Notes under the pieces: generated by a model
Databases searched by the model: none
What the model was told of the DNA's origin: nothing
What the model saw: the letters and a program-made list of their open reading frames with translations, nothing else
Part shown: positions 42,234-61,889 of the stretch, piece after piece
How the letters are laid out: the number at the start of each line of letters is the position of its first letter
How positions within the stretch are numbered: position 1 is the stretch's first letter
Program-made: the position numbers and the translations under genes
From: Halorussus pelagicus
GTDB lineage: Archaea > Halobacteriota > Halobacteria > Halobacteriales > Haladaptataceae
Assembly (NCBI RefSeq): GCF_004087835.1
Contig: NZ_CP035119.1
Span: 2,542,001-2,606,000 of the forward strand
Reading direction: 5' to 3'
Length of the DNA: 64,000 bases

Positions 42234-43332
42234 CCTCCAGTTTCTCGTAGCTCTCGACGAGTGCGTCGGCCAGCCGTTCCAACTCGGTGTGAACGTAGCC
42301 ATCCTCACCGAACATCCGTGCGAGGTTGCGTTCGGAGACACCGCCGAAGCCGACACCGATGACCGTGAACCCCTCGTCTCGGAGTTCATCGACGGTTTCG
42401 GCGGCCTCTCGGCAGGCGTCCGTCTTGTCGAGGTCGGTCCGAGACAGCACGGTCGGGTGGCCGTCGTGGACGACGAGCAGGAGCTTCTCGTCGGCGGCCA
42501 CTCGGTCGAGGAGGCTCGCGCAGTGCAATAGCCCTGCCGAGATCGGGTCTGACGACCGGGGGCGCACCGCGAGGAGGTGTTCCCAGTCGAATTTCTCCCG
42601 CGGCCGCGTGAGGACGACGCTGTCCGCGGAGCGACTACCGCCCTGCCACGCGTTTGCGACGACCTCGCCGCCGAACTTCTGGACCGCGTCGAGGAACGCA
42701 CCGACGGCCGATTTCGACTCGACCTCGTACTGACCCATCGACCCGGACTGGTCGAGCGAGACGCCGACCGCGACGTTGCCGCCGGTCACCTCGGTCCACT
42801 CCTCGTAGGGGTCAGTGGTCGTGTCGCCACAGACGTACCGAGTCGCCTGTCGAAGGTCCAGCGTTCCCGGCTCGTCAACTGGGCGACGGCGCTCGTCGCT
42901 GAAGATGTCCAGAAACGCCGAGTAGACCTTGCAGTCGATGGCAGTTTCGCGGATACGCTCGTGGATGTCCGGCAATGGAGCCGCTCCGTCGTACTCGGCG
43001 ATACGCTCGTTGCGCTCGCTCTCGTCAGCGACCACGTCAACCGTCACGTTCTGAAGGACCTCGTCCTCCTGCTCGATGTTGGAGTCGAGGCCCATGATCT
43101 GGTCGAGGTCCTCCTCCGACCACTCCTCGGGGTCGTCGTCCGAGTCGGCGTCCGTAGCCGTCGCCGTATCTGGGTCCACGTCACTGAGATGGGATTCAAC
43201 CAGTAACGCGGTGTTGGCGGGGAACTCCATCAGCTTAGCCTCCTCGCCGGTAGTCCCCCTCTCTCTCTCTCGGTCTGTCCCGTGACGGAACAGGAACCGG
43301 ACTAACTCCCCGGCGTTAGCGTGGAGCATCAA
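42211..43332 (-). CDS. von Willebrand factor A (CobT/ViaA-like) protein
   Basis: 373 residues. An acidic N-terminal half has DDDPEEWSEEDLDQIMGLDS, like the metal-binding acidic belt of CobT/ViaA proteins. The vWA domain (about 190-360) has the MIDAS motif VSLDQSGSMGQ (DxSxS) and ends VIGVGFGGVSERNLARMFG. MoxR ATPases work with such vWA proteins as chaperones for metal insertion or particle maturation. It overlaps the MoxR gene by 4 bases. Confidence 0.88.
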   Translation of the reverse strand: MMLHANAGELVRFLFRHGTDRERERGTTGEEAKLMEFPANTALLVESHLSDVDPDTATATDADSDDDPEEWSEEDLDQIMGLDSNIEQEDEVLQNVTVDVVADESERNERIAEYDGAAPLPDIHERIRETAIDCKVYSAFLDIFSDERRRPVDEPGTLDLRQATRYVCGDTTTDPYEEWTEVTGGNVAVGVSLDQSGSMGQYEVESKSAVGAFLDAVQKFGGEVVANAWQGGSRSADSVVLTRPREKFDWEHLLAVRPRSSDPISAGLLHCASLLDRVAADEKLLLVVHDGHPTVLSRTDLDKTDACREAAETVDELRDEGFTVIGVGFGGVSERNLARMFGEDGYVHTELERLADALVESYEKLEDDHGGGA

Positions 43333-44543
43333 GCGACCCCCTGTGTCTGGTCTACCGTCGTGTCGGCGTCACCCGAGAGGTGATGTTCGACGAGGCGCTC
43401 GACCGCGCGCGCCGGACTGCCGTCGGCGTAGAGCGAGTCGTTCTCCGGGTCCGGTTCGAGGACATCGCCCCAGTCGTATCGGGGGTTGATCAGCGCCGTC
43501 TGCGCAGCCCGTAGGAGTGGGTCAGGTCGCGTCCCGTCGTAGGCCGCATAGGTGCGAGCCCAGCGGAAGAGCGTCGATGTTGGAACGCCACGTTGAATCG
43601 TTCCGCCCCTGTCAGCGGCCTTTCGCCGGAGGTCGTTGGCGATGGTGACCATCGTCTCCGCGACCTCGTTGGCGACCGGCGTCTCGTCGGCGAGCAGGTC
43701 AACCTCTCGCGCTCGGTCAACGAGGCCGAGATACGGGACCGGAAACGTGTTTCCGTGGCGGCGCTCCTCGGCGGGGTCCACGTCGAACGTCTTGTATTGC
43801 GCTCCTTCGTTCATCGTCGAGAACGAGATCAGGTTCTCGGTGTTCCCCCGAATCTCCTCGTTGGCTCTCGGTTTAACCGTCACTGACGTTCGGGAGTCGA
43901 GAACCGACTGGAGTGGCGACTTGTTCCGGAACGGACTGCGGTTGATCTCGTCCCAGAGGACGACGACCGGCCGGTCCTGCGAACACAGCAGCGCCCGGAC
44001 GACGGGGCCGTCAACCCAGACCGATTCGCCTCCGAGTAGGTGCGGTGAGCCGACGAGGCTTGCTTCCTTCATCTGTGCCGTAATCTGAACCTCGATAACC
44101 GGCCAGCCGCGTTCGGCGGCGAGACGGCGAACGAGTGTCGTCTTTCCGGTGCCGGGCGGACCGACCAAACGGAAGTGCGGAATCGGCCCGTTAGTCTCGC
44201 GCTGGTCGAGGGCGGCCTCGATGTCCTCGAACTCACCGAGGACGCTGATGTAGTTCGGAACCTCGTCGATGGTCGGGACCAAGCTGTCCCAGTCGTACTC
44301 CCGATCTCCGAGGACCGGCAGGGTATCGAGGTCGTGGTCAGCGTCGTCGGCCGGGATGCTGTAGACGAATCCCCGGCCGGTGTCCTTCTCGTGGCGGGCC
44401 AACCGCGTGTCGTCGTCTTCGGCCATCTTCTTGAGTTCCCGTGAGACGTGAGAACGGTCGCTAATACCGTCGATCTCACGGGTTATTTCGGGAGCAGTGA
44501 GAGCGCCTGCGCGGATGGCCGCGTGCGCGTCGGCGACTTTCAT
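43329..44543 (-). CDS. MoxR-type AAA+ ATPase with N-terminal winged helix
   Basis: 404 residues. Residues 1-65 form a winged-helix-like domain (ALTAPEITREIDGISDRSHV, then a FVYSIP wing). The AAA core has Walker A LVGPPGTGKTTLVRRL near 130, Walker B VVVLWDEINRSPFRNKSPLQ near 195, and a C-terminal lid (about 300-400). MoxR/RavA enzymes remodel proteins together with vWA partners; the next gene encodes one. GGAGGT stands 6 bases before the ATG, preceded by a nested palindrome, so this mRNA has a leader. Confidence 0.9.
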   Translation of the reverse strand: MKVADAHAAIRAGALTAPEITREIDGISDRSHVSRELKKMAEDDDTRLARHEKDTGRGFVYSIPADDADHDLDTLPVLGDREYDWDSLVPTIDEVPNYISVLGEFEDIEAALDQRETNGPIPHFRLVGPPGTGKTTLVRRLAAERGWPVIEVQITAQMKEASLVGSPHLLGGESVWVDGPVVRALLCSQDRPVVVLWDEINRSPFRNKSPLQSVLDSRTSVTVKPRANEEIRGNTENLISFSTMNEGAQYKTFDVDPAEERRHGNTFPVPYLGLVDRAREVDLLADETPVANEVAETMVTIANDLRRKAADRGGTIQRGVPTSTLFRWARTYAAYDGTRPDPLLRAAQTALINPRYDWGDVLEPDPENDSLYADGSPARAVERLVEHHLSGDADTTVDQTQGVA

Positions 44544-44769: not shown

Positions 44770-45723
44770 TTATTTCCCAGTAATTTCGGCCAAGAAGTCG
44801 TTCGTGGCGAATTGGTCAACGTCCTTCTTAACGTTCGAGACGTGCGATTGGCTCATCAGACAGGCGACTTCACCGATTTTTGTCTGTGGTAGCGCTACGC
44901 CGGGATGCTTGAGCAGGTTCGCAATGATTTCGTCGCGGGTCTCCTCGCGGGCGGTCTTCCGCTCCGCCTCGACGCGCTCCTGGTGGTCCTCGCGGCTGAT
45001 GTACTTCGACTCGCCGTCCGCCCCACTCCCAATCTCGTCCCATTTCTCGGACGTAAGGGACTGATACACTGGATTGTCACCGTCGAGGGCGTCCCACGTC
45101 ATCGTCTGGGTCGGTGTCGGGTACGTCCTGCCCTCGAACGGGTTCTTGTTCAACTCGTAGACGCGGGCGAGGCCGCGGCGCTGGACCAGAATCCAGTAGT
45201 CCGCGAGGTCGAGGATGTTCTTGTCGATGTGCGACGAGGCGGGCATGTTGAAGATGACGTACTTCTCGGCGACACGCGCCATCGAGACCATCTTCGAGAG
45301 TACCTTGTTCGTCGTCGTCATCGCGTCCCGCGAGTTCATTCCGGCCTCGGCCTCGTCGAGGATGAGCGCGCTTTGGTGTGGTTCGGCCGAGTAGGCGTTG
45401 ATCATCTCCTCGGGAGTGAGCGTCGCTTTCGAGGGCGTCAGGCCCTTGTCCGACTGGTCCATCGCCCGCGCCAGCTTGATGGAAAGCGTCGTCTTGCCGG
45501 AGCCGCGCTCGTTGTCCCAGTCGGAGACGATGACCGTGAAGTCGCGGTTCTGGGAGGCTCGCTTCTCGTACTCCTCCCAGAACGGCGAGTCGGTGAACGA
45601 CTCGCCGCCGATCTCGTCGCCGACCGGGTCGTCGAGGAGTTCCGGCGGGAGCGAGGGACTCTCGGGCTGAGGCGGTTCGGGGAGTTCGAGGAGGTCGAGG
45701 TCAGCGTTGGTGGTGGTGCTCAT
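44770..45723 (-). CDS. P-loop ATPase (Zot/FtsK-like) with C-terminal winged helix
   Basis: 317 residues. Walker A in DNERGSGKTTLSIKLA (about 73-88), Walker B SALILDEAEAGMNSRD (about 117-133), and YVIFNMPASSHIDKN as the sensor strand. The core resembles additional-strand ATPases such as Zot or viral packaging enzymes. The C-terminal 60 residues (LPQTKIGEVACLMSQSHVSN) make a winged-helix-like domain. In a particle-forming element such an ATPase commonly drives DNA packaging or extrusion; inference. ATGA overlap with the upstream gene. Confidence 0.78.
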   Translation of the reverse strand: MSTTTNADLDLLELPEPPQPESPSLPPELLDDPVGDEIGGESFTDSPFWEEYEKRASQNRDFTVIVSDWDNERGSGKTTLSIKLARAMDQSDKGLTPSKATLTPEEMINAYSAEPHQSALILDEAEAGMNSRDAMTTTNKVLSKMVSMARVAEKYVIFNMPASSHIDKNILDLADYWILVQRRGLARVYELNKNPFEGRTYPTPTQTMTWDALDGDNPVYQSLTSEKWDEIGSGADGESKYISREDHQERVEAERKTAREETRDEIIANLLKHPGVALPQTKIGEVACLMSQSHVSNVKKDVDQFATNDFLAEITGK

Positions 45724-46262
45724 CCGGCCACCTCCTCGGTGTCACCGGACTCGTCGGCGCTGGCGTCCGGGTCTTCGACGGCGTCCTCGACGCTGGTTTC
45801 AGGCACATCGTCACCGGGTTGTGCGCCGAAGTCGAGTTCGACCAGTGCGAGATTCAGCCGGTCGTAAGCCGAGAACAGAATATCGGCCGGGAGGCAGATC
45901 GTCTCGTCAACCATCTCGGTTTCGTCGGCCTCGCCCATTTTCCGGCGGGTCCGCTCGGACGTGCTCTTCGCCGTTCGCCACTTGTCGAGTGAGTTGAGGT
46001 AGAGGTTCCCCTGTTGGGTCTCGTGAATCGCTTTTCGCTTGAATAACTCGGGCTTCTTCGCCAGATACGGTCGAAGCCGGTTGTAGTACCGGATGACCGC
46101 CTTGTGAAGTTCGACGTGTGCTTCTTCGAGTTTCGCGTTGTTGTCTTTGTAGAACACGTCGATGTAGAGGTCCATCGCGGCGTCGGCCTGTTTCCGCGCT
46201 TTATGAATGGTGTTGAGTGATTTCCGGGCGCGCTCCGGAGTGTCGTCGTCGTAGTTCGACAT
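45720..46262 (-). CDS. helical protein paired with the P-loop ATPase
   Basis: 180 residues. Residues 10-130 are predicted alpha-helical with charged heptads (KSLNTIHKARKQADAAMDLY, KWRTAKSTSERTRRKMGEAD), followed by an acidic disordered tail. No family recognised. It is the first gene of the two-gene ATPase operon, divergent from the membrane-protein module and sharing its control region at 46263-46394. Confidence 0.65.
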   Translation of the reverse strand: MSNYDDDTPERARKSLNTIHKARKQADAAMDLYIDVFYKDNNAKLEEAHVELHKAVIRYYNRLRPYLAKKPELFKRKAIHETQQGNLYLNSLDKWRTAKSTSERTRRKMGEADETEMVDETICLPADILFSAYDRLNLALVELDFGAQPGDDVPETSVEDAVEDPDASADESGDTEEVAG

Positions 46263-46394: not shown

Positions 46395-46877
46395 ATGTCC
46401 GCAGGCATGGCAACCTCGGGGGCGACCGCGTCCTCGGGACCGACGGCAACGCTCGACGGCTTCCGTCAGGCGACGGCGGAAGCCATCGCACAAGGTAAAG
46501 AGAAAACGGCTAACGGCGCAGAAGTCGCTGGCGAGACGCTCCGTAGCGCGGTCGAAGTAGACTTCGCGTCCGAGGGACTGACCGAGGACTGGGAACTCTC
46601 GAAGACCAAGGCGCAGCAGGACCTCGAAGAAAGCGACTCGAAGATGGCGCGGTTCTTCGGCCCCGAGAGTACCATGATTGGCGTCCTGACGGTCGCCGTC
46701 GTGCTCTACCTCATGCCGGTCATCCTCTCGAAGGTCGGCAACGCGGGCGGGAACATCAGCGGCCCGCTGGGTAACATCAACAGCGGTGAGCAGGCCGCGG
46801 GTGTCATCGAGTTCGGGTGGCTTGTGCCCCTCCTGATGATCGTGTTCATGGTCTTCGCGTACCTGAACCGGGCCTAA
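46395..46877 (+). CDS. two-TM membrane protein, first gene of the particle module
   Basis: 160 residues. A Ser/Ala/Thr-rich start (MSAGMATSGATASSGPTATL), an amphipathic helical region (20-85), a TM helix near 93-112, a Gly-rich loop (SKVGNAGGNISGPLGNINSG), and a second TM helix near 136-156. The Gly/Asn-rich loop lies between the two helices. Reminiscent of small internal membrane proteins of pleomorphic viruses but not recognised as homologous. Confidence 0.7.
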   Translation: MSAGMATSGATASSGPTATLDGFRQATAEAIAQGKEKTANGAEVAGETLRSAVEVDFASEGLTEDWELSKTKAQQDLEESDSKMARFFGPESTMIGVLTVAVVLYLMPVILSKVGNAGGNISGPLGNINSGEQAAGVIEFGWLVPLLMIVFMVFAYLNRA

Positions 46878-46952
46878 TAGTATCGTTTGTAACCATCCCG
46901 CGCGGTATCGCTCCCAATCCAATCCCGTCCCTTCGACCTCGTACCACCGCTC

Positions 46953-47423
46953 ATGCAGCGATTCATCATCGTGGCGGCGGCGGTCGTCCTGCTGTTCGGC
47001 GCACCCCTCGTTTTGGGGTCCGCTCTTCAGGGGACCGCCACCGACTACCACGCGACCGAGACGCTCACCGTCGCGGATAGCGCCGGAAACACCGCGACGT
47101 GGCAGACGCTCGGCAACAACTCGCTGTACGGCAACGAGACGGTTTCTCAGAATGGGACGACGCTGAACGAGTCCGAGGACTACCGGCTCAACGCGAGCGC
47201 CGGGACGATCGACTTCGTGACCTGTTCAGAACAAGGTGTCTCCGCCGGACCGGGATGTCCGGTGGAGGGGAACGAGGCAACCGTCGATTACTGGTACGAA
47301 TCGGCCGACCAACGTATACGGCCGCTGGCGGTCGGAATTGGACTGCTCTTCGGAGCAGGGAGCGATATCGGGCTTCTCATCGCCGTGGTCGCCGCGCTCC
47401 TCGCGGCGACCAAGGTGACGTAA
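46953..47423 (+). CDS. secreted protein with C-terminal membrane anchor
   Basis: 156 residues. Signal peptide (MQRFIIVAAAVVLLFGAPLV), an extracellular domain (about 25-118) with several Asn-X-Ser/Thr sequons and one Cys pair (C near 91 and 100), then two hydrophobic segments (about 125-155). Likely exposed on the outside of a membrane. No family. Confidence 0.68.
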   Translation: MQRFIIVAAAVVLLFGAPLVLGSALQGTATDYHATETLTVADSAGNTATWQTLGNNSLYGNETVSQNGTTLNESEDYRLNASAGTIDFVTCSEQGVSAGPGCPVEGNEATVDYWYESADQRIRPLAVGIGLLFGAGSDIGLLIAVVAALLAATKVT

Positions 47424-47429
47424 CCAGAC

Positions 47430-47744
47430 ATGCTCGTTCAAGTGTACCTCTTCGTGTTGGCTGCGGCTGCAATAGCCAGCTACCTCGCGGTAGCTCGCCG
47501 TGGCGAACTTCAAGATGCTGACCTCCTGATGGCCGTGTTCGGAGCGCTCGCGTTCGCGCTGTGTGGCGTCGCGTCGCTCAACCTCGAAGTCGTGTCCAAC
47601 GGCTCGATACTGGCGACTGAGGCGTACTACCTCGCGGTACTGTGGTTCCTGTGCGCGTTCGCAGATGTGCTCATCGTGTACGGCCTGCTGATTTCGAAAC
47701 TCGACGTTGACCGTCGAGATGTGCTCGGAGGTGTGTTTCAGTGA
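47430..47744 (+). CDS. small membrane protein, three TM helices
   Basis: 104 residues with hydrophobic segments near 3-21, 32-50 and 65-86. Starts 6 bases after the previous stop, and overlaps the next gene by 4 bases (GTGA). No family. Confidence 0.65.
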   Translation: MLVQVYLFVLAAAAIASYLAVARRGELQDADLLMAVFGALAFALCGVASLNLEVVSNGSILATEAYYLAVLWFLCAFADVLIVYGLLISKLDVDRRDVLGGVFQ

Positions 47745-48283
47745 GTAAGACCAAGCAGAACGGCCAGACCGGGACCGCCGGAACGGCGACGGCTTCGTCG
47801 GGGAACAGCGCAGGAAACGACGACTACAGCGACCTGAACAAGACCCAGAACGGTGCGCTCGACGGCGACCGTCAGTACCTCGCCGAGGTGGTCAAATCCG
47901 ACGTGGGTAGCCAATACATCGAGTTCATGGAGGCCGAACTCTCGCGCGCCCACCAACTGGCGAACCGCTCGGAGGCGGAGTTCTGGGAGTTCAAGAACAT
48001 GGTCCACAAGCGGACCTTCGAGTATCTTGCCCAGCATCCGCCCTCCGGGTCGCGGATGACCGGACCCGCCCGGAAGTTGGTGTACGGCGACGGCCTCGGC
48101 GATAAGACACCGCTCACCCCCGACCAAGTGCGCGAAATCGAGTCCATCGAGAGTCTCATCCTCGCAAAGGCGTCGGGTGGCAAGGACATGGCTCAACAGG
48201 ATATCATCAAGACGATGCGGCAAGAGCAGACCCGCTACACGGAGCGTGAAGGAGAGGGCCTGCTCGGGCGCTTATTCGGGTGA
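47741..48283 (+). CDS. soluble helical protein of the particle module (GTG start)
   Basis: 180 residues. A Gly/Ser/Thr-rich disordered start is followed by a helical body (FMEAELSRAHQLANRSEAEF, TPDQVREIESIESLILAKAS). The GTG overlaps the preceding stop. No TM helix; one of the few soluble products in this run, so a matrix-like or accessory role is possible. Confidence 0.63.
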   Translation: MSKTKQNGQTGTAGTATASSGNSAGNDDYSDLNKTQNGALDGDRQYLAEVVKSDVGSQYIEFMEAELSRAHQLANRSEAEFWEFKNMVHKRTFEYLAQHPPSGSRMTGPARKLVYGDGLGDKTPLTPDQVREIESIESLILAKASGGKDMAQQDIIKTMRQEQTRYTEREGEGLLGRLFG

Positions 48284-48289
48284 TCACTC

Positions 48290-49030
48290 ATGGATTTCCA
48301 AGACATCGACTACGAAGCGTACATTCAGAAGGCACGGAACACGATCGCAAGCGCCCTGTTCATCCCGGCGATGATGATCGCCGGGACCTCGGCGCTCAAG
48401 ATCGACGACACCGGCCGTATCAAGCTCCGGCCAGCGACCGAGAAGACCGAACCCCAGCGCGGGTTGAAGAGCGACGGGAAGTTCCGGAAGGCTGGCGGTC
48501 AGGGAAGTCTGTTCAAGTTCTACGGCTCGACGGTCGGAATCATCGTCGAGGACATCGAGGCGCTGGTCAACCCCGCGACGCTCGAAATCCTCGAAGGAAA
48601 AGAGCGCGTCGAGACCGACGGCGGCGACGCCTACGACGAGGAGAAACGCGTCGGCGCGCCCGAGAAGGGCAAGGACGAGGACGACTACGAGGAAGACCTC
48701 GTCGAGGAGGTGCCGGTGAGGTCGGACTTCATGGTGAACTTCGGGCATTTGGAGAACTACACGCCGTTCAGCATGCTCGACGGCAACGGGTTCCGGAAGA
48801 CGACCGATTACGTTCGCACGAGCGTGGCGAAGTACGGCCAGACGAGTCCGATGACCCAGACGGCGTTCTCCATCGTCCTGCTGCTCATCGGGTACTGGAT
48901 GGGGAGCAATCAGGGTGGCGGGGGCGGCGGCGGGGCTGGCGGCGGCAGTATCCCGATGCCGTACATCAGCGTCCCGACCGACTACCTCGTGACTGGCTTC
49001 GACCTCGCGGCGATGGGAGGGTTGTTCTGA
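48290..49030 (+). CDS. membrane-associated protein with Gly-rich C-terminus
   Basis: 246 residues. A hydrophobic segment near 18-35 (SALFIPAMMIAGTSAL) is followed by a soluble domain (40-190) containing KFYGSTVGIIVEDIEALVNP, a strongly acidic patch (105-135), a TM helix near 190-205, and a GGGGGGGAGGGS run (about 208-219) before a hydrophobic end. Overlaps the next gene by one base (TGATG). Confidence 0.63.
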   Translation: MDFQDIDYEAYIQKARNTIASALFIPAMMIAGTSALKIDDTGRIKLRPATEKTEPQRGLKSDGKFRKAGGQGSLFKFYGSTVGIIVEDIEALVNPATLEILEGKERVETDGGDAYDEEKRVGAPEKGKDEDDYEEDLVEEVPVRSDFMVNFGHLENYTPFSMLDGNGFRKTTDYVRTSVAKYGQTSPMTQTAFSIVLLLIGYWMGSNQGGGGGGGAGGGSIPMPYISVPTDYLVTGFDLAAMGGLF

Positions 49031-49407
49031 TGAACGTCCGAGAATCACTCGGCGAAGCGTCCGAGAACTTCGATGGAAGTTCGATTACGAGGGGGTTCAT
49101 CGTGTTGATCGCCTGCGTCACCCTCGGAACGCAGATGGCGGTCCTGTTCGCGTTTCAGGATCGGCTCACTGCCGACCAGTTTGACGCTATCTGGTCGGTC
49201 TCGAAGGTCGGTTTCTACGCGCTGGTGGGAGTTCCGGCTCTGAACTACCTCAGTGAGTTTTTCGCGGCGTTCGAGATTTGGTCCCCGGAAGGCGAGTCGG
49301 AAGAGCAGGAGACCGACGCAGATGAGGTCCAGTTCGGCGAGATGTCGGAGGACAGCGGCGGCAAGGTGATCGACGGCGAGGAGCAAGCTCGGGAGGGGTC
49401 GGCGTGA
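49030..49407 (+). CDS. two-TM protein with acidic tail
   Basis: 125 residues from ATG 49030. TM helices near 20-43 and 58-80, then a 45-residue Glu/Asp-rich tail (EEQETDADEVQFGEMSEDSG...). The longer upstream frame is a shadow. One-base overlap upstream and GTGA overlap downstream. No family. Confidence 0.63.
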   Translation: MNVRESLGEASENFDGSSITRGFIVLIACVTLGTQMAVLFAFQDRLTADQFDAIWSVSKVGFYALVGVPALNYLSEFFAAFEIWSPEGESEEQETDADEVQFGEMSEDSGGKVIDGEEQAREGSA

Positions 49408-49625
49408 CGATCTACGTCGAGCACGACCCGACGCGCGACGACCGGAAAGGCGATTGGGTCGTGAAGAACGGCGCGGGCCGCGGTGGTAGCATCCTCTCAC
49501 GTCACCACCGGAAGGGGAAGGCGAGATCGGTCGCGCAGAAAGAAGCACGGAAGCGAAATACGGATGTCCACGTCCAGAACTCGTCGTCCGGTCAGTGGAA
49601 GCAAGGGCGGGGCTGGGGGAGGTAA
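49404..49625 (+). CDS. DUF2188-like small protein
   Basis: 73 residues with the DUF2188 layout: GDWVVKNGAGRGGSILSRHH, then RSVAQKEARKRNTDVHVQNS. In this family a W-V-K strand is followed by a helix and a -V-H- strand; the function is unknown. GTG start overlapping the previous stop. Confidence 0.65.
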   Translation: MTIYVEHDPTRDDRKGDWVVKNGAGRGGSILSRHHRKGKARSVAQKEARKRNTDVHVQNSSSGQWKQGRGWGR

Positions 49626-49626
49626 G

Positions 49627-52518
49627 ATGCCGAGACCGCCCGTTCGCCGAGGAGGTGGGAGCCGTGACGATGACTCGTCCAGCGACGAGACCGAGTCTGA
49701 CGACTCGGAGACTGTCGGGAACGACGGTCCTGGAGGGACCGCACCGACACAGGGCGAGTTGACCGGTGGTCTGGGGTCGGATTCCGGGTCCGAATCGGAC
49801 TCCGGAAGTAGTGACTCCTCGGACTCCAACTCGGGAAGTAGCGGCGCTTCTGGGTCCGGCTCGGCAGGCGATGGGTTCGACAAGGACATGGCCAACGAGG
49901 CTCGCTATGGCGATGACAGCCCTAACGATACGACTCCAGAGGACGACACGGATACGTCGTCGAGGTCCGGAGAGAAATACTCCGAGGAGGTGATGCCTGC
50001 CGAACGACCGACTGTCGTCACCGATGACGGTGCCCCTGACCTTTCGAGGGACACCGTTCAGGAGACAGTATCGGAGGTCCAGCGCAACGTTGCGAGCGAG
50101 TACGGGAGTGAAGTTAGCCCGTCTGATGTTCGTGTGCGCGTGACTGGTGAGAACGTGGTGGAAGTCCTCGGACTGTCCCGTGGCGCACAGCGTGACGTGC
50201 TCGAGGACCGTCTGAAGGAGCAAACTGGCGCGGAAGATGTCGAGTTCTCAAAAGAGGATGGCGACCTCACTGCGAGACCCATCTTCGGCGATCAGCCCGA
50301 GAGAATTGATGGTCCGAGAGGAGGACCGGACCTAACGAACGACCAGTCGGATGTCGGTGAGGAGTTCTCCCTCGGCCCGCCTCGAAACGCCGACGAGAAA
50401 CGCCGCGTCGGTTCCGGCGGGCAACTTGGTGAAGAGTTGATGGAAAAGCAGGTTGAGGACGACTCAGACGTGAACGTCGATGTCGGCCGGGACGAGCAGG
50501 GTGGTTTTGTTCTTGACCGGACGGAGACCACGACCAACATCCGCGAACGGATCGCCGAAGAGACCGAGAACATCGACGAGTCGGACATAAAGCGCGTCTT
50601 CCGGAAGGGGCCGGATAGTGTTGAGGATCTCGCGGCCGACAAGGAGGCTGAGACCGGTTACGGAGTCGAGCTAACGCGCGAAGCACGCAAGACCCTCCTC
50701 AGGCAGAAAGCCCGCGAACAGAACCCGAACGCGGAGAACATCGAGGTCGTCGAGAACGAGAAGGGCGACCTCGTCGCGCAGATCGAAGGGCAACAGGCCG
50801 AAGAACAGTTCGGTGATTATCAGGCCGAAATTCCGTTCACCGGCGGTGAAACCGTCGAGGACTACCTCGAAGGAGGGTCGCAGGCCATCAGTAGCGCGAT
50901 TCAGGATACGTCGAGCGCGCTCTTCGATGAGGGAGGGATCGCCTCGGAGTCGATTATCGCCGAAGAGTTGGAGGACACCGCAAACGATTTGCGAGCGAGA
51001 GGGTACGACGATGCGGCTTCGTCGCTGGAAGGAACCAGTGTCGCGTTAGAGGAGAGTCTCCGGTCGTTCGGGAAGGGCACCTTCGAGGGGGCCGCAAACA
51101 TTGCAAACGTCCCGAGGGCGGCACTCGGGCTGAAGGAAGGCGCTGAGTACCTTGTTTACGCCGGGTCCGAGACGCTCGCTGGAGACGGAGACGAAGTCGC
51201 TGAACAGACTGATGACGCACTCGTGTCGGCTGGCGCGGCCGCTGTCGATGCTGCGCAGTCGAACCCGGCGGAGTTTTCCGGGCAACTTGTCGGGTCGTTA
51301 GGCGGGAGTGCTGCCGCCATCTCCGGTGCCTCGAAGCTGTCCTCGACGGCGGGTCGGGCGGCGGCCTACGGGATTCAACCCGGCGAGGAACTGGTCGGAA
51401 GTGTTGCGACGCGACTCGCCTCGAAGACAGCGACTGGTTCGCGGGTCGTCTCCCAAATGCCTGGTAACAAACTCGGTCCTGAAGAGTTGAGTGTCGTCGC
51501 AGGCAAAAAGGCAGGACAGAAACTCCGTGAGACGGTCGATGATCCGCGAGTGAGGCAGTTCCTGCGCGATGAGCGCAGGCAGGCCCAGCCGCTTGGGCCG
51601 GGAACTGGTGCAGGGGACCAGTTGACACTGACGAGAGACCGTGAAGAATCGAACAGCGAGACGACGGAGTCGGACGAGGAGCTTTCAGACCTCGATAAGG
51701 AACTGGAAGAACTTCGAGAGAAGGTCTCGGAACAGGACGTTCGGGAGACAGACGAGTGGACCCCCGAGTCGGCCGAGGTCAGTGAGGCCGAGCCGGGGGC
51801 GACCCCGACGGAGGATCTCCGCGAACTAACTCCTGACGACCAGTCTGTCGAAGAAGTGGCCGAGAGTACCCCGACGACGGACGTTCGGGAGACTTCAGAG
51901 ACAGATCTTGAGTCAGAAATCGGTGTTAAACCGGGGTCACAGTCGAAGAGCCTTGACCAGACCATCCGAGAGATAGACGAGCTAAATCAGGGCCTGAGAC
52001 AGCAGTTCGAACTTCAAGACGCCCAGAAAACGACGGCTGAGACAGAAAAGACGACGGAGGTGGGCGTCGAAGCGCGGACGGTTGAGGAAGAGGAGGCGGC
52101 GACGACGCTTCGTGACCTGCAGGAGGAGGTTCAACGCGACCTCGATTCGACGTTCGAGGATACTGCGTCTCGGCTCCGTGAAGCGCAGGCGACTGATCAA
52201 GGCGTCACAGTCGAGAGTTCAGTGGACCTCTCCACCGAGATGGACCAAACCCTCGACCTCGATTTCGAGCAGGACCTCGATCAGGACCTGCAGCTCGACC
52301 AAGAGTTCAATCAGGACTTCGAGCGGGACCTCGACCTGCGGAAGAAGTTCGACAGACGGAAGAAGGAACTTCCGGGTGGCGACCAGCCCCGGTCCGACTT
52401 CTGGCAGGAGTTCGAGGAGATAGGCGGTCTCTTCAGCAAGGAGTACCGGAACCCGGTGGCGTCACTTGACGAGATGGACGCCGAGTTCGACGCGGCCTTC
52501 GAGGAGGGATTCGAGTGA
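49627..52518 (+). CDS. 963-aa disordered/coiled structural-type protein with Asp-Leu repeat end
   Basis: Starts at ATG 49627. Residues 1-130 are Ser/Asp/Gly-rich and disordered. Two similar modules follow (about 135-215 and 345-425: QRNVASEYGSEV..., RKTLLRQKAREQNPNAENIE...VENEKGDLVA). A central Ala/Gly-rich, partly hydrophobic region (about 445-660) is followed by coiled coil and acidic linkers (about 680-860), a short repeat of DLD/DQDL/DFE units (about 870-915), then a basic patch KKFDRRKKELPGG. No family recognised. It is the largest product and may be a scaffold or tape-like organiser of the particle. Confidence 0.7.
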   Translation: MPRPPVRRGGGSRDDDSSSDETESDDSETVGNDGPGGTAPTQGELTGGLGSDSGSESDSGSSDSSDSNSGSSGASGSGSAGDGFDKDMANEARYGDDSPNDTTPEDDTDTSSRSGEKYSEEVMPAERPTVVTDDGAPDLSRDTVQETVSEVQRNVASEYGSEVSPSDVRVRVTGENVVEVLGLSRGAQRDVLEDRLKEQTGAEDVEFSKEDGDLTARPIFGDQPERIDGPRGGPDLTNDQSDVGEEFSLGPPRNADEKRRVGSGGQLGEELMEKQVEDDSDVNVDVGRDEQGGFVLDRTETTTNIRERIAEETENIDESDIKRVFRKGPDSVEDLAADKEAETGYGVELTREARKTLLRQKAREQNPNAENIEVVENEKGDLVAQIEGQQAEEQFGDYQAEIPFTGGETVEDYLEGGSQAISSAIQDTSSALFDEGGIASESIIAEELEDTANDLRARGYDDAASSLEGTSVALEESLRSFGKGTFEGAANIANVPRAALGLKEGAEYLVYAGSETLAGDGDEVAEQTDDALVSAGAAAVDAAQSNPAEFSGQLVGSLGGSAAAISGASKLSSTAGRAAAYGIQPGEELVGSVATRLASKTATGSRVVSQMPGNKLGPEELSVVAGKKAGQKLRETVDDPRVRQFLRDERRQAQPLGPGTGAGDQLTLTRDREESNSETTESDEELSDLDKELEELREKVSEQDVRETDEWTPESAEVSEAEPGATPTEDLRELTPDDQSVEEVAESTPTTDVRETSETDLESEIGVKPGSQSKSLDQTIREIDELNQGLRQQFELQDAQKTTAETEKTTEVGVEARTVEEEEAATTLRDLQEEVQRDLDSTFEDTASRLREAQATDQGVTVESSVDLSTEMDQTLDLDFEQDLDQDLQLDQEFNQDFERDLDLRKKFDRRKKELPGGDQPRSDFWQEFEEIGGLFSKEYRNPVASLDEMDAEFDAAFEEGFE

Positions 52519-52805
52519 CCCGTCGGAGTTTCGTCGAGGACGACCGCGCGATCGGGTACCATATCGTCATCGCGCTGTTCGTTCTCGGTGCGTTTGCGCT
52601 CACGTTCGCGTTCATCGGGCCGATTTTTGACAAGAGTCAGGAGATGGCGGTCAACCGGTCGGCGGACACTCGGTACGAAGGATACGCGAGCAACGGTATC
52701 GGCTACATGGCGCAGGCCCGCCATTCGATGCCGTTCCTCGTGATGATCCTCGTGACGGTGTTCCTGTTCGGAAAGGCGGTGCTGTTGTCGAGTCGGAGGT
52801 ACTGA
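52515..52805 (+). CDS. two-TM membrane protein (GTG start)
   Basis: 96 residues. TM helices near 15-35 and 70-88, with a polar loop between (DKSQEMAVNRSADTRYEGYA). GTG overlaps the TGA of the 963-aa gene. No family. Confidence 0.63.
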   Translation: MTRRSFVEDDRAIGYHIVIALFVLGAFALTFAFIGPIFDKSQEMAVNRSADTRYEGYASNGIGYMAQARHSMPFLVMILVTVFLFGKAVLLSSRRY

Positions 52806-52807
52806 CC

Positions 52808-53068
52808 ATGCTTCGTGGCATTCAGTTCCTGTTCAAGGTCCTGCTGCTCGGGATCGTCTTTCTCACGTTCGCGCCGAGTCTACTGGGTCGGTTAGGAAAT
52901 AAAGCGGCAGGGTCCAGACTGATCGAGTCCGGAGCGTGGTCGATGGGCCCGCTCGATAATTTCGCGTGGTTGGTTCTGGAGATTCTGCCGATTGCGGTGT
53001 TTATCGGGTGCTTCGCGTGGGTGCTGCTGGCGGTCGTCGCCAAGTTGGGGCTCGCAGGGAGGCAGTGA
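52808..53068 (+). CDS. two-TM membrane protein
   Basis: 86 residues. Hydrophobic segments near 6-24 and 52-80, with a small polar loop. Two bases after the previous stop. No family. Confidence 0.63.
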   Translation: MLRGIQFLFKVLLLGIVFLTFAPSLLGRLGNKAAGSRLIESGAWSMGPLDNFAWLVLEILPIAVFIGCFAWVLLAVVAKLGLAGRQ

Positions 53069-53070
53069 TT

Positions 53071-53154
53071 ATGACACGACTGAAACTCCAAACTGGTTCG
53101 GCGAGCATCGCACCGGAAAACCGCGGTCAGATGGAGGACACAGATGGCGCGTAA
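53071..53154 (+). CDS. possible 27-aa micro-gene preceding the spike gene
   Basis: MTRLKLQTGSASIAPENRGQ and seven more residues, ending TAA. It fills exactly the gap between neighbours (2 bases after one stop, overlapping the next start by 11). The gene-packing fits; the length does not allow more confidence. Confidence 0.35.
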   Translation: MTRLKLQTGSASIAPENRGQMEDTDGA

Positions 53155-55528
53155 GAGTATCGTCGTGTTCGCGCTCGTGGCAGTGTATCTGGCAACATCA
53201 GTGGGTCCTGTCACGGCGGCGCATGGAGAATTAGCCGTCGGAAGTGAGCACTCGACGGGCGCAGAGTTATCGGGTGCGACGACACTCGAAAATGTGACGG
53301 TTGACGGTTCTGGTGAGGCAGCTAGCGTGTCACTGGCTACCGGACTCACGGACGGTTTTGAAGACGACGATCTGGGAGCCTTCCCCAGTGACTGGGCGGG
53401 AGATAGCGCAGAAGTCGTCTCGTCGCCCGTTCACGACGGCACCCGATCGGTAAACGTCACTGGGGGCGACCTTGACCAGTCGGTCCAGACCTCCACGGCG
53501 AACGCGAGCGCGTGGCTGTACTCGCATACGGACGCTGGGACGCTCATCTACTTGAACGAGGATGGTAACTCGATTGTAAACGTTGGAATCCGGAATGGCG
53601 ACCTCGTTTACTATGACGGGTCGTGGACTACGATTGCAACGACCCCTGGGAACAACGAATGGGTGTGGGTGAATGTCCGTGACATTGACCCGAGTTCCGA
53701 CACCGCGACGGTTGAGTGGATGATACAAAGCGGGGCGTCTGGTAGCAGCACGGTCAATTTCCGCAACGACATGACGAACGGCTACGATACGTTCCAAATC
53801 CAGCAACAAGAGACGGACGTGGGAACTGTCGATGCGGTGGACGCGGGAACTCACGCCGAGACAGGATTGTACGTGAGCGATAACCACACCGCGACCAACG
53901 CGAAAAAGGCCTGGACGAATCTCTCGATCTCGAACGCGACCGCGACTGTCGAGTGGCAGGCGTGGACTGGTACGCAGTGGCAGGTGGTTGATTCATCAAC
54001 ATTCTCGAATTCAGGCAATAAGACCGTCAATATCTCCGGAGCCGACTTTGACTCCCCAAAGTGGCGGGTGGACGTGACCCTCGAAAAGACGGGGAGCAAC
54101 CCGACGGCCGAACTGCACGACGAGGGGATGCTCGTCGAGACAGACCCACCCACCGCTGATACCGTGAACGCGACGCCAGCGAACGGAAACGGAACGAGCG
54201 GACGGTCCATCACGGTCGAGGTCCCGGTCAACGACACCGACTTCGGTAAAACCCAAGGCGACTCCGTGGACGCGTCACTCATCCTCGACGGCGTCGAGGA
54301 AGCGACAACGACGTTAGCCAGCAACGGGACCGCCAGTGTGTCGGTCTCGAACGTCTCGGGCGGGACCCATTCCTATCACTGGATTCTCACGGACTCCTAC
54401 GGGCATACCGTCTCGACGGACTCGTTAGAGTTCAAATCGCCGCTCATCCTTCATATTCACGACGGCGACAACCGGTCGGCGCTCGTAACGTCGGAGATCG
54501 ACATGGAGATCATCGAAACGAACGGTGACTTCCGAGAGACGCGCTCGGTCTCGGACGGGACGGCCGTCGTCGGCGCGGTTCCAGATACTCAGCTTAAAAT
54601 TCGTCTCACCGCCGACGAGTATCAAAGCCGCCGGATGCTGATCAACCACCCCTATTCACGGACGAACCGGCATACAGTCCTGCTAAACAAAAGCGATTCC
54701 CAGACGTTCCAACAGTGTTTCGAGGTCAACTCACAGAGCGCGGGATTCGAGCCTGCGGATACGTGGCTGGTCCTCGAAAGCTACATCGACGGCGAGTGGC
54801 GCGACGCCGCAGGAACGTACTTCGGCTCGACCAACTACGCGTGCGTCGGTGTCACCGATGGGGAGGAGTACCGACTTATCGTCAACGAGGGGTCGAAATC
54901 GAAAGACCTCGGTGGGTACACTGCTGATAGCGGATTCGCAAACCAAATTCTGCAACTGAACGTCCGGAGTGTCGATGTCGGGGTCTCAGCGGGAACGCCG
55001 TACGCGATGAGCGTCCGCGGGTCGCACAACGAGACGACCGGCGAGGGAACGATCAGCATCACGTTCGCGTCCCACGACCAGTCAGTGTCCGATTTAGAGC
55101 TTCTCGTCTACCAGAAGGGCAACGAGAGTAACGTCGTCTTCGAGAAGACGGTGTACGGGACCGTCGAGACCTATGCGGCGTCGGTCCCCATCGACGCGAA
55201 CGAGACCGACGAGACGTTCATCGTCGAATGGAGCGCGACAGAAGGAACGAACAAGACGATTAGCGGTCAGCAGAAGGTGAACGTCTACCGCGGGAGCGTC
55301 GAAACGGGTCTCGGTCCGATGTGGCAAAAGGTCGGATACGGGAGTCTCATCCTCCTCATCGGTGGACTGTTCGGGCCGATATCTGCGCCGATTGGCTCGG
55401 TCGTGACGGCGTCGGTCGCCGGTGCGCTGTGGTACAGCGGAGTCCTCGACCTCCGAATCGGCGTGATTCTCTACGCCGGGAGCGTCGGACTCGCCTTCTA
55501 TCTCAGCAGTCGCATGGGGGGTCGATAA
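53144..55528 (+). CDS. 794-aa exported spike-like protein with C-terminal membrane anchor
   Basis: Signal peptide MARKSIVVFALVAVYLATSV, cleaved near ...VTAAHG. Three beta-rich regions follow: a jelly-roll/LamG-like one (about 60-205: DGFEDDDLGAFPSDW, then YSHTDAGTLIYL), a middle one (about 230-330), and an Ig-like region (about 335-425, GGTHSYHWILTDSYGHT). A further beta domain reaches 710, with one Cys pair (near 526 and 567), and many Asn-X-Ser/Thr sequons lie between. The last 80 residues hold three hydrophobic segments. Candidate receptor-binding spike of the particle, or a cell-surface adhesin. Confidence 0.8.
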   Translation: MARKSIVVFALVAVYLATSVGPVTAAHGELAVGSEHSTGAELSGATTLENVTVDGSGEAASVSLATGLTDGFEDDDLGAFPSDWAGDSAEVVSSPVHDGTRSVNVTGGDLDQSVQTSTANASAWLYSHTDAGTLIYLNEDGNSIVNVGIRNGDLVYYDGSWTTIATTPGNNEWVWVNVRDIDPSSDTATVEWMIQSGASGSSTVNFRNDMTNGYDTFQIQQQETDVGTVDAVDAGTHAETGLYVSDNHTATNAKKAWTNLSISNATATVEWQAWTGTQWQVVDSSTFSNSGNKTVNISGADFDSPKWRVDVTLEKTGSNPTAELHDEGMLVETDPPTADTVNATPANGNGTSGRSITVEVPVNDTDFGKTQGDSVDASLILDGVEEATTTLASNGTASVSVSNVSGGTHSYHWILTDSYGHTVSTDSLEFKSPLILHIHDGDNRSALVTSEIDMEIIETNGDFRETRSVSDGTAVVGAVPDTQLKIRLTADEYQSRRMLINHPYSRTNRHTVLLNKSDSQTFQQCFEVNSQSAGFEPADTWLVLESYIDGEWRDAAGTYFGSTNYACVGVTDGEEYRLIVNEGSKSKDLGGYTADSGFANQILQLNVRSVDVGVSAGTPYAMSVRGSHNETTGEGTISITFASHDQSVSDLELLVYQKGNESNVVFEKTVYGTVETYAASVPIDANETDETFIVEWSATEGTNKTISGQQKVNVYRGSVETGLGPMWQKVGYGSLILLIGGLFGPISAPIGSVVTASVAGALWYSGVLDLRIGVILYAGSVGLAFYLSSRMGGR

Positions 55529-55529
55529 T

Positions 55530-55889
55530 ATGGGAATGCGAGGAAAGGAGATGGTGATTTTAATCGTCTGCATCGTCGCGGCGACGGCGTTTGCCTCGGC
55601 GACGCTTGCTCCGACGTTCGGAGTTTACCCGACGACGGGAGTCAAAGAGGACGTGGATGACGCGAACAGGGCGTACGAGAACTCGTCCGGGGAGGTCTCC
55701 GATTCAGGGTCGCTCAACCCTGCTGACGCGCTCGGAATCGTCGGTCGGACACTCGGGATTCTCGGGAACTTGGATGGCGTTCTCGTGAATCTGGGGGTTC
55801 CGAAGCGCGCGGCGGTGTTCTTCGCGTACCCCGTCTACGCGATAATCGGTTGGACAATCCTTCAAATCGTGCTCCGAACGAGGTTGTAA
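55530..55889 (+). CDS. membrane protein, two TM helices
   Basis: 119 residues. TM near 7-26 (VILIVCIVAATAFASATL), a polar outer loop (30-70), and a hydrophobic C-terminal stretch (90-115). Starts one base after the spike gene; may be its membrane partner. Confidence 0.63.
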   Translation: MGMRGKEMVILIVCIVAATAFASATLAPTFGVYPTTGVKEDVDDANRAYENSSGEVSDSGSLNPADALGIVGRTLGILGNLDGVLVNLGVPKRAAVFFAYPVYAIIGWTILQIVLRTRL

Positions 55890-55892
55890 CCC

Positions 55893-56207
55893 ATGTTCGA
55901 GCTACTTCCTCTCCAAGAGTCAGGCGGACTGTTGGAGTTCTGGGCGGAAGGGAACTTCATCGAGGGCATCATCCGGACCTTCATGAACCCGATGGGTCCG
56001 GCGTTCGTGGTCTGGGTGCTGGTTGCGTTCGGCGGGTCGTTTGCCGTCTACTCGCGGTCGCCTGCTCCGCTGGTCGTCGTGTCGGTCATCGTCGGCGGGA
56101 TGGCTGCACCGGTTCTGCCCGGTCTCGGCAGCAACGTCTTGATGCTTATCGCCATCGGTGCCGGTGCGTCGGCGCTGTGGACGCTCTATCAGGGAGTGGG
56201 ACAATGA
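55893..56207 (+). CDS. membrane protein, three TM helices
   Basis: 104 residues with hydrophobic segments near 35-52, 55-75 and 78-95. Short acidic amphipathic N-terminus (FELLPLQESGGLLEFWAEGN). Overlaps the next gene by 4 bases. Confidence 0.63.
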   Translation: MFELLPLQESGGLLEFWAEGNFIEGIIRTFMNPMGPAFVVWVLVAFGGSFAVYSRSPAPLVVVSVIVGGMAAPVLPGLGSNVLMLIAIGAGASALWTLYQGVGQ

Positions 56208-56428
56208 CTTCGACCGACGAGATGGAGGCGCTCATCAAGCCAGCCTACTGGTCGGGGGTCGCTGGATTCGTCGCGTTCGGCGCGATGTCGTGGACCTCGT
56301 TCCACGGGTTTCCGGTTGCGAGCCAGTTCTGTAGCGCGCTGTTTCTTGGGTGCTATCTCGGAGCAGTCCTCTACCTGATGGTGGTGAGTGAACTCTCCTC
56401 GTCGTCTGCGAGAGGTGAGACAGTGTGA
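56204..56428 (+). CDS. two-TM membrane protein
   Basis: 74 residues from ATG 56204. TM helices near 14-32 and 40-62. ATGA overlap upstream and GTGA overlap downstream. The upstream long frame is a shadow. Confidence 0.62.
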   Translation: MTSTDEMEALIKPAYWSGVAGFVAFGAMSWTSFHGFPVASQFCSALFLGCYLGAVLYLMVVSELSSSSARGETV

Positions 56429-56781
56429 CCGCGGTGTACGCAGTCTTCCGACCGGCATATCTGCTTCACGAGGTGATGCACTACCTCGCGGCACTCCTGT
56501 TTGCCGAGGACGTGGAGTTCGGGGTGACCGCACAGGGCCGTCCGTGGCTCGACGTTGAGTTCGCCGAGGAGGCGGCAGTGTGGCCGCAGGTCGTCGTCGG
56601 AGTTGCACCGGTAGTCACGGGCGGGATGTTCCTCGCGGCGTACATGTGGATTGTTCTGTCGCCGCTCTCGGGGAGCGGGTGGTTCTGGCTTGCGCCGGTC
56701 CATCTCTACGTGTTGGCGTCTGCGGTGGTCTGGGCGACGCCGTCGGACCGAGACTTAGACCCTCTCCGCGAGTTACTCTAA
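56425..56781 (+). CDS. HExxH integral-membrane protein (putative metallopeptidase)
   Basis: 118 residues from GTG 56425. AYLLHEVMHYLAALLFAEDV (about 11-30) contains HEVMH, the HExxH zinc motif, at the start of a hydrophobic helix, as in DUF3267/M50-type membrane peptidases. Three more TM-like segments follow (about 50-70, 72-88, 90-105). A third zinc ligand is not obvious; Asp near 113-116 is a candidate. Last gene of the module, followed at once by a hairpin terminator. Confidence 0.6.
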   Translation: MTAVYAVFRPAYLLHEVMHYLAALLFAEDVEFGVTAQGRPWLDVEFAEEAAVWPQVVVGVAPVVTGGMFLAAYMWIVLSPLSGSGWFWLAPVHLYVLASAVVWATPSDRDLDPLRELL

Positions 56782-57655: not shown

Positions 57656-59308
57656 TCAGTTGGTGGAACTATCCATTATTCGTTCATGTTCGTCCGATCC
57701 GTATATCAGTCGGTGGTAGCCGTTGCCCGTATTGAACTCGATGATCGCTTTGTGAAGTGGCGCGTCGAATCCGGCTTTCGTCCAGACGACCTCAAGGTAC
57801 TCCAAGACCTTCCCGATGTACTCTCCTGAACTCTGCCGATACCGGTTGAGGACCGACGTGATCTTGATGTGGACGCGGTCGCGTGGTGCGCTCCCGTCGT
57901 TGATAACTTCGGCACCGTACTGAGTCAGCCATCGCTGGAAGGCCGAGCCTTTCTCTTTCAGTTGCCGTGGGTCGAGATCGAGGATGCGCGCGGCTTGGTC
58001 GGCGGCGGCCTCGACGGTCTCCTCGACGCGCTCGAAGACGGCGGCGAACTCTTGGCGAATCTTCTTCGACCGCCACTTGACGACGCCGTTGTCGGATTCA
58101 AGGAGCGCGTCGCACCGCTTGAGGGTGCGGTAGAGCGTCGAGACTGAGGTATCCGCCTCGTCGATGACTTCTTCGTAGTGGCACTGGCCGCTGTCGGTCA
58201 TCGCTTCGAGGTGGTCCATGTCGGCGTCGGTCAACTCGCGCATCTGTTGGACGAGTAGCGCTTCCTGCGAGGCTTCGAGTTTCGGCGTTGGGTCGTCGTA
58301 GAGCCGGAGCGTCGGATTCTCGTCGTAGGCGCTCACGTCGAAGTGGCTGTCAGGGACGAACGTCGTCTGGTCGGGGTCGGTTGGGACGTTCGACCAGTAG
58401 AGGAGGTTGATGAGCGTTTCGTTGAGTTCACGCTGGAGGTCGTCGATCTTCGACCAGCGAACGGTCGAGTTGTTCAGCTCCTTGTTGAAGAGCACGCCGA
58501 GTTTTGGGTGGTGGGTCGGGTCGGTTTCATCGACGCTGTCGGGGTTCTTCAGGAGGTAGCTCTTGACCTGCTTCCCGCGATTCCCGACCGGAAGTTCGCG
58601 GGCGGCCGACTGCCGGAGCGGGAGTCGGTGCATCTTGCCGACGGTGTCCTCGTTATCGACCTCCAGCGAGTAGCGCACGCCCTCCTCGTCGAGGAGAAGG
58701 TGATGGAGTTTCTGGAGGATGCCGCTGGTGCCGATGATTTTCTGGTTCATCGACCGGCGGATGCGGAGATAGCGTTCGTAAGAGTGAGCGTTCGACGAGT
58801 CGTGGATGTAGCGCGGGTTGAAGTATTCGTGGTTGAACCGCTGGCCCGCCTCCGCGAACAGCAACTGGACGAGTTGGGGGAGGAGTCGTTCGTACTCCTC
58901 GGGTTCGAGGTTGCTGCCTTGGACGTGGACGTTGACGCCTTCGTTCGGGATGGAGTCGCGGTCGCAGGGAGTCGAGATGCGGTCGCCCGACTCGTAGTGT
59001 TCCATGCCCTTGAACCGGGGTCGGACGTGGAACGTGACCTTGCGTTCGCCGTGACCGCGGGCTTTCAGTCGGGGCTCGTAAAGTCGCGGCGCGTCGATGG
59101 GGTCGTCGGGTCGGGGTGCGATGCCACCCTTCTGGTAGTAGAGTTCGAACGACCACTGTTCACCGTCGAGGTCGTATTCCAGTTGGTCGGCGTGGCCGTC
59201 GAACTGGTTGACGAGGAGGTTCGTGACGGCCCAGTAGGGCGAGAGACCATGCTCGAAGAAGTTCCAGTCGGCCTCCAGTTCGTGGGGCGCGCTGGCGACG
59301 TGCGTCAA
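57656..59308 (-). CDS. DUF7845-like protein, candidate replication initiator
   Basis: 550 residues. The N-terminus (APHELEADWNFFEHGLSPYW) and the DGEQWSFELYYQKGGIAPRP segment match my memory of haloarchaeal DUF7845 proteins. A middle winged-helix region (about 360-430: LTDADMDHLEAMTDSGQCHY, DEADTSVSTLYRTLKRCDAL) is followed by long helices. Proteins of this type occur in haloarchaeal plasmids and proviruses; a replication role is inferred from context and size. Overlaps the next leftward gene by 4 bases. Confidence 0.6.
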   Translation of the reverse strand: MTHVASAPHELEADWNFFEHGLSPYWAVTNLLVNQFDGHADQLEYDLDGEQWSFELYYQKGGIAPRPDDPIDAPRLYEPRLKARGHGERKVTFHVRPRFKGMEHYESGDRISTPCDRDSIPNEGVNVHVQGSNLEPEEYERLLPQLVQLLFAEAGQRFNHEYFNPRYIHDSSNAHSYERYLRIRRSMNQKIIGTSGILQKLHHLLLDEEGVRYSLEVDNEDTVGKMHRLPLRQSAARELPVGNRGKQVKSYLLKNPDSVDETDPTHHPKLGVLFNKELNNSTVRWSKIDDLQRELNETLINLLYWSNVPTDPDQTTFVPDSHFDVSAYDENPTLRLYDDPTPKLEASQEALLVQQMRELTDADMDHLEAMTDSGQCHYEEVIDEADTSVSTLYRTLKRCDALLESDNGVVKWRSKKIRQEFAAVFERVEETVEAAADQAARILDLDPRQLKEKGSAFQRWLTQYGAEVINDGSAPRDRVHIKITSVLNRYRQSSGEYIGKVLEYLEVVWTKAGFDAPLHKAIIEFNTGNGYHRLIYGSDEHERIMDSSTN

Positions 59309-59544
59309 GCGTCGTCACCTCCCTGCTCGGTGGCCGTGCTGGACTGCTCACCGACGGTCTCCGTCACGAACTCCTCGCCGTTGTAGAACGTCTTCTTCCC
59401 CGCTCCGATAAACGCATCACAGTTCGGGCAACGGCGTTGGTATGAGATTCGACCGCGCTTTAGACGCTTCCTCACGTCCATCGGTTCCATGTCCTCACGA
59501 CACTCCGGACACCGCTCGGTTTCGTCTGTGGGCTGCTCAGTCAT
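59305..59544 (-). CDS. zinc-ribbon micro-protein
   Basis: 79 residues from ATG 59544. CPECREDMEPMDVRKRL and RCPNCDAFIGAGKKTF make a complete two-knuckle zinc ribbon (CxxC, 25 residues, CxxC). Disordered acidic end. It overlaps the methyltransferase by 8 bases and the DUF7845-like gene by 4. Confidence 0.7.
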   Translation of the reverse strand: MTEQPTDETERCPECREDMEPMDVRKRLKRGRISYQRRCPNCDAFIGAGKKTFYNGEEFVTETVGEQSSTATEQGGDDA

Positions 59545-61866: not shown

Positions 61867-61889
61867 AAAATGCGGATGGACTCGGCGGG
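61867..61889 (+). repeat. right attachment repeat, overlapping tRNA-Ala 3' end
   Basis: Identical to 32909-32931. Positions 61877-61889 are the last 13 bases of tRNA-Ala (minus strand) and 61867-61876 lie beyond the tRNA. The element is read to end here. Confidence 0.88.

Follow-up and report, generated by a model that had tools for sequence, protein, structure and literature searches.

Positions 46395 to 56781 of the window, which is the whole 64-kb part of a 3.49-Mb haloarchaeal genome analysed here (contig C1:2542001-2606000), carry a compact set of genes coding mostly for small membrane proteins around one spike-like protein. The question is what this set builds, and whether it belongs to the chromosome or to a mobile element. 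The comparisons described below indicate that the region 32909-61889 (29 kb) is very probably a temperate virus of the lemon-shaped LSV-48N type, integrated into the chromosome. With similarly high confidence, the 15-gene block is the virion-morphogenesis operon of this virus.

The integrated element and its boundaries

The features of the element outside the structural block are as follows (positions in the window).

32909..32931, no strand: attL, exact 23-bp direct repeat
33010..34044, minus strand: tyrosine integrase, 41% identical to LSV-48N CDS30 (E 5e-87)
34037..34441, minus strand: small gene overlapping the integrase start (gene calling)
38720-39901, strand not given: AN1 zinc-finger and CAP-domain protein; homologues in related elements L083, L039 and L052
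42211..43329, minus strand: vWA-domain protein, cargo; without homologue in the related elements that were compared
43329..44543, minus strand: MoxR-type AAA+ ATPase, partner of the vWA protein; homologues in tailed haloviruses
44770..45723, minus strand: P-loop ATPase with C-terminal HTH; homologue of His1 gp16, BLv25 ORF1 and LSV-48N CDS23
45720..46262, minus strand: w41, conserved ATPase partner; LSV-48N CDS22; 22 loci
57656..59308, minus strand: Rep-Arvir (DUF7845) rolling-circle replication initiator; LSV-48N CDS26
59537..61105, minus strand: C5 cytosine DNA methyltransferase; a longer, different one in LSV-48N
61102..61431, minus strand: DUF488-like gene; LSV-48N CDS28
61867..61889, no strand: attR, identical 23 bp, overlapping the tRNA-Ala(GGC) 3' end
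61877-61948, minus strand: tRNA-Ala(GGC), its 3' end covered by attR

The integrase gene is located just inside the left end of the element, and it is the integrated form, with its att repeats, that is found here, the circular form being seen in relatives only. A joined-flank query was used, in which the distance from the homologue of the left flank to the tRNA gene is measured in congeners. This distance is 0.7-2.0 kb in seven congeners, compared with 29.3 kb here, and it is larger in other congeners (2.4-28.6 kb), for which reason the tRNA-Ala site looks like, and may be, an insertion hotspot. At the same tRNA-Ala gene, two congeners (G391 and G400) have about 28 kb that is devoid of this ATPase family.

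The P-loop ATPase family occurs in one of the 18 genomes of the genus, in two of the 28 of the family and in 25 of the 391 of the class (haloarchaea), and the structural marker g4 is found in 28 of 391 haloarchaeal genomes. The att repeats, the short site in congeners and this sparse occurrence show that the element is mobile and is not a housekeeping locus. The distribution in the genus and family is thus not that of a conserved, non-mobile chromosomal locus, the alternative that a preliminary description of this DNA had set against its own proposal.

It is possible, but rather unlikely, that the element is a defective provirus remnant, of the same origin but having lost the ability to make particles. 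Insertion could account for the MoxR/vWA pair, the resolvase and the CAP gene. Against this, the module, replication and integrase genes are all open reading frames in the gene calling, with no apparent frameshifts, and the two copies of the 23-bp att repeat match perfectly. The MoxR-vWA pair is missing from all the related elements that were compared, but genes related to it occur in tailed haloviruses; a virion-assembly chaperone role, for which the ATV proteins p618 and p892 (cited in PMC7911831) offer an analogy, is our guess for the pair.

The structural module and its counterparts in LSV-48N

Gene calling gives 15 plus-strand genes from 46395 to 56781, with a spacing of -4 to +6 bp throughout, except for +75 before g2 and +75 before g11. 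Hydrophobic TM segments are present in about twelve of the 15 products.

46395..46877, plus strand: g1, probable major capsid protein, variable N-terminus and 2-TM hairpin; LSV-48N CDS20 position
46953..47423, plus strand: g2, minor virion protein, signal and C-terminal TM; LSV-48N CDS19, BLv25 ORF3, His1 gp23
47430..47744, plus strand: g3, 3-TM protein; LSV-48N CDS18; 17 loci
47741..48283, plus strand: g4, soluble protein, good structural-module marker; LSV-48N CDS17
48290..49030, plus strand: g5, C-terminal-TM protein; LSV-48N CDS16 by position
49030..49407, plus strand: g6, TM protein; no homologue in related elements
49404..49625, plus strand: g7, DUF2188-like small basic protein; similar small gene at this place in Halomarina
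49627..52518, plus strand: g8, 963-aa disordered/coiled protein; LSV-48N CDS15
52515..52805, plus strand: g9, 2-TM protein, possible second MCP-like paralogue; LSV-48N CDS14 by position
52808..53068, plus strand: g10, 2-TM protein; LSV-48N CDS13 by position
53144..55528, plus strand: g11, spike/adhesin: signal, ectodomain, TM segments at the C-terminus; LSV-48N CDS12 (E 1e-61)
55530..55889, plus strand: g12, membrane protein; LSV-48N CDS11
55893..56207, plus strand: g13, multi-TM protein; LSV-48N CDS10
56204..56428, plus strand: g14, small TM protein; LSV-48N CDS09 by position
56425..56781, plus strand: g15, membrane zincin-like protease; LSV-48N CDS08; HExxH in 10/10 homologues

The preliminary description agrees with these gene calls in its coordinates, sizes, overlaps and number of TM products, as well as in the 963-residue disordered protein and the 794-residue protein with a signal and an anchor; its count of about 16 coupled genes becomes 15, and the DUF2188-like homologue that it recognised, g7, has no Pfam match at E<0.1. 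Scans of the module with Pfam and PHROGs give almost nothing. The PHROG label of g2, 'major tail protein with Ig-like domain' (E 0.004), which LSV-48N CDS19 also receives, is judged uninformative.

LSV-48N (PP151251.1) is a lemon-shaped virus of Haloferax, described in EMBO Rep 2025, with lemon-shaped particles visualized by EM, 13 virus proteins detected by MS in the supernatant, both integrated and circular forms, and a reported release without lysis; it was published as related to Haloferax proviruses only (PMC12714723). By sequence comparison, it is the closest described relative of the element. Thirteen of the 15 module genes are collinear with LSV-48N CDS20-CDS08 (g1-g5 with CDS20-16, g8 with CDS15, g9/g10 with CDS14/13 and g11-g15 with CDS12-08), and nine of these have sequence or profile support, namely g2, g3, g4, g8, g11, g12, g13 and g15, and g1 via the MCP profile, with g5, g9, g10 and g14 matching by position only. 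The BLAST matches are those of g11 (E 1e-61), g2 (1e-8), g8 (2e-8) and g15 (2e-4) in the module and of the ATPase (3e-7), the integrase (5e-87), DUF7845 (4e-43) and DUF488 (2e-5) outside it, to which the profile searches add g3, g4, g12 and g13. Homologues of most of the genes, arranged in the same order, are found in many other archaeal genomes as well as in an isolated virus, so the module is more than a chance arrangement.

The two elements share the structural gene order, the spike, the integrase, DUF488, Rep-Arvir and the integrated state, and both have the DnaA-like ATPase and its partner gene on the divergent strand. They differ in that identity is low (about 25-41%, most structural proteins being <=35% identical to their counterparts), the LSV-48N methyltransferase is different and longer, g6 and g7 are extra here, the MoxR-vWA, resolvase and CAP cargo is on this element, and LSV-48N is 24.9 kb long, compared with 29.0 kb, and has a second integrase. 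As a member of the LSV-48N kind, this element is new and divergent.

The preliminary description proposed an envelope or particle assembly set, as in pleomorphic viruses or pR1SE-type vesicle plasmids, and saw in it a candidate for an undescribed system. A mobile element with a set of particle-assembly genes is indeed what is found, but its relatives are LSV-48N and, more distantly, BLv25 and His1, and the novelty of the system is not upheld, as the isolated Haloferax virus has the corresponding gene order. It is highly improbable that the spike and the membrane proteins coat a DNA-carrying lipid vesicle, in the manner of pleolipoviruses or pR1SE. The many small TM proteins and the signal-anchored spike would fit such a vesicle, and the Rep-Arvir initiator is common to the betapleolipovirus SNJ2 (PMC13107129). 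Nevertheless, tblastn queries with the spike and the ATPase match no pleolipovirus in the phage collection, searches of the plasmid collection, which may not contain pR1SE, give no pR1SE match, no structural-gene similarity is found with SNJ2, a pleomorphic virus, and the structural gene order fits the lemon-shaped LSV-48N. As judged by the spike and ATPase queries and by gene order, the structural genes are not pleolipovirus-like. Likewise, a membrane-protein operon adjoining ATPases could belong to a non-viral integrative element that codes for a secretion or conjugation machinery; this is extremely improbable, as the proteins scanned include no member of the T4SS, pilus or relaxase families, and the homologous module sits in a virus with particles observed by EM.

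Within the virion-morphogenesis operon, g8 is without TM segments and may be a scaffold or internal protein. The spike protein g11 (794 aa) has a signal peptide and C-terminal TM segments, and this general layout, with the ectodomain in between, is also that of His1 gp27, BLv25 ORF8 and LSV-48N CDS12. Its structure model (pLDDT 40) is too poor for a fold search, and the match of its profile to a bacterial Ig-like domain in the PDB (E 0.007) is taken as supporting a beta-rich ectodomain only. The g15 protein resembles the DUF3267 putative zincin peptidases, just below the Pfam cut-off, and the HExxH metalloprotease motif is kept in all ten family members compared; this protease may mature virion proteins or assist exit.

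The candidate capsid protein and the relation to His1 and BLv25

The LSV-48N paper found none of the ORFs of that virus to resemble a known capsid protein (PMC12714723). Between the ATPase pair and g2, the related loci have a gene whose product combines a variable N-terminus with two TM helices; in several of them this gene is tandem-duplicated. The corresponding position is taken by BLv25 ORF2, annotated as MCP, and by His1 gp21, between gp16 and gp23. An MCP profile seeded only with His1 gp21 and BLv25 ORF2, and then iterated, ranks the g1-position ORF first in 19/19 genomes, including LSV-48N, in a run in which one known off-position ORF was removed manually and another off-position ORF entered the profile; g1 is rank 1 among the 362 ORFs of this element. 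When the alignment setting is faster and no ORF is excluded, the number is 8-10/19, so that the result depends on alignment settings. The 24 control seeds (nine other His1/BLv25 seeds and 15 column shuffles) never give more than 3, and none of them converged on the g1 position. The assignment of g1 as the major capsid protein is therefore well supported by these profile comparisons but not proven, and its derivation through His1 and BLv25 is probably new relative to the LSV-48N paper. The g9 protein may be a second MCP-like paralogue or a chance likeness among two-TM proteins. Neither the g11 profile nor the MCP profile finds a credible virion homologue in the PDB, and the best match of the latter, presenilin (E 0.03), is taken as chance. 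The structure model of g1 (pLDDT 61, pTM 0.22) is too poor for a fold search.

The spindle-shaped virus BLv25 of Halorubrum (OQ850971.1) has the same ATPase-MCP-g2 neighbourhood (ORF1-ORF3) and a spike-like ORF8 with C-terminal TM segments, but its genome is 13 kb and has no significant match to g4, g13, g15, the integrase or DUF7845, with g12 matching weakly. In GenBank, BLv25 (L001) is classified under Caudoviricetes, which fits neither its name nor its genes. In His1 (Halspiviridae, Salterprovirus), the ATPase gp16 is homologous, the MCP gp21 is linked by profile, gp23 resembles g2 and gp27 weakly resembles the N-terminal part of g11. A tblastn search of the phage collection with the ATPase matches both viruses, and a g2 profile built without them has BLv25 ORF3 as its top match (E 2e-8), followed by His1 gp23 (E 0.025). 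Unlike the element, His1 has a linear genome that is bounded by terminal repeats and codes for a type-B DNA polymerase, and the integrase, Rep-Arvir, g4, g8 and g12-g15 are without match in it. A two-TM spindle-virus MCP, a feature of Halspiviridae, is present here by the iterated, setting-dependent profile. The element is not placed in this family because there is no PolB among the element proteins scanned, it is integrated, and it has a rolling-circle initiator.

Proposed working and wider occurrence

The DUF7845 protein belongs to the rolling-circle initiator family Rep-Arvir, as shown in 2026, and LSV-48N has one (PMC13107129). Its Y251 is invariant in eight homologues, K-x precedes it in most, and, as judged by eye, it resembles the published catalytic motif. 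In SNJ2, which also has a Rep-Arvir initiator, the replication operon forms only after circularisation (PMC13107129). Joining the ends of the element would place the integrase upstream of DUF488, the methyltransferase and Rep on one strand, and this is the order of the circular LSV-48N genome.

Gene identity and order are observed, and from these the individual protein roles and the activity of this copy are inferred as follows. The integrase would excise the 29-kb element at the observed tRNA-Ala att sites, and circularisation would align the integrase operon with DUF488, the methyltransferase and Rep in one direction of transcription, as in SNJ2. Rep-Arvir would then start rolling-circle replication, which others have shown for SNJ2 and which the matching gene order suggests here. 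The capsid would be a two-helix membrane capsid formed by g1, with g2, g3, g5, g6, g9, g10 and g12-g14 as minor membrane proteins and the long coiled or disordered g8 as an internal or scaffold protein. The signal-anchored spike g11 would bind the host, the P-loop ATPase, with a presumed packaging or replication role, may package or deliver DNA, and the g15 metalloprotease may mature virion proteins or help exit. By likeness to LSV-48N, the particles would probably leave without lysis.

The g11 profile also matches genomes outside the haloarchaea, where the neighbourhoods have MCP-like, g3, g11, g12 and g13 genes in similar order, often with the ATPase and integrase; some of these loci (L100-L107) have a long disordered protein and an integrase. 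Three of these genomes have mcrA and are methanogens, and three others have dsrA. No earlier report of the module outside the haloarchaea was found in the literature searched, mostly without subscription journals. Scans of viral contigs with g5 and with the ATPase give no relatives, and a scan of genome contigs gives only three. Evenly balanced, in our judgment, is the joint proposition that LSV-48N, His1, BLv25 and this element form one broad spindle-virus lineage with a conserved ATPase and two-helix capsid protein, that its spike-g12-g13 module extends across haloarchaea, methanogens and dsrA-bearing archaea, and that the membrane HExxH protease of the haloarchaeal members is a conserved, previously unrecognised maturation or egress enzyme.

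Lemon-shaped particles are the commonest shape in several hypersaline waters (PMC12714723), and few genomes of lemon-shaped viruses are known. The present data name the likely capsid protein of LSV-48N, tie this virus to His1 and BLv25, and place relatives, as traced by the ATPase or by g4, in 25-28 of 391 haloarchaeal genomes, with spike-module relatives beyond the haloarchaea. For finding and classifying such viruses, g4, g11 and the MCP profile can serve as markers, and g15 is a testable protease.

Among the relatives, a 34.6-kb contig of Halomarina oriensis (NZ_WSZK01000004) has the module and is very probably circular, since joining its ends gives an intact w41. The module is also on a 23.5-kb plasmid of Natronomonas pharaonis, a 3.8-kb stretch of which is 100% identical to the chromosome of its host. 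A plasmid of Halomicrobium urmianum (L004) has a tandem repeat of a 14,077-bp block that includes genes for the spike, DUF7845 and the integrase; this may be a concatemer or an artefact of the assembly. In another genome (G287), two copies of the ATPase region (L015 and L032), 99.9% identical, lie about 41 kb apart on one chromosome.
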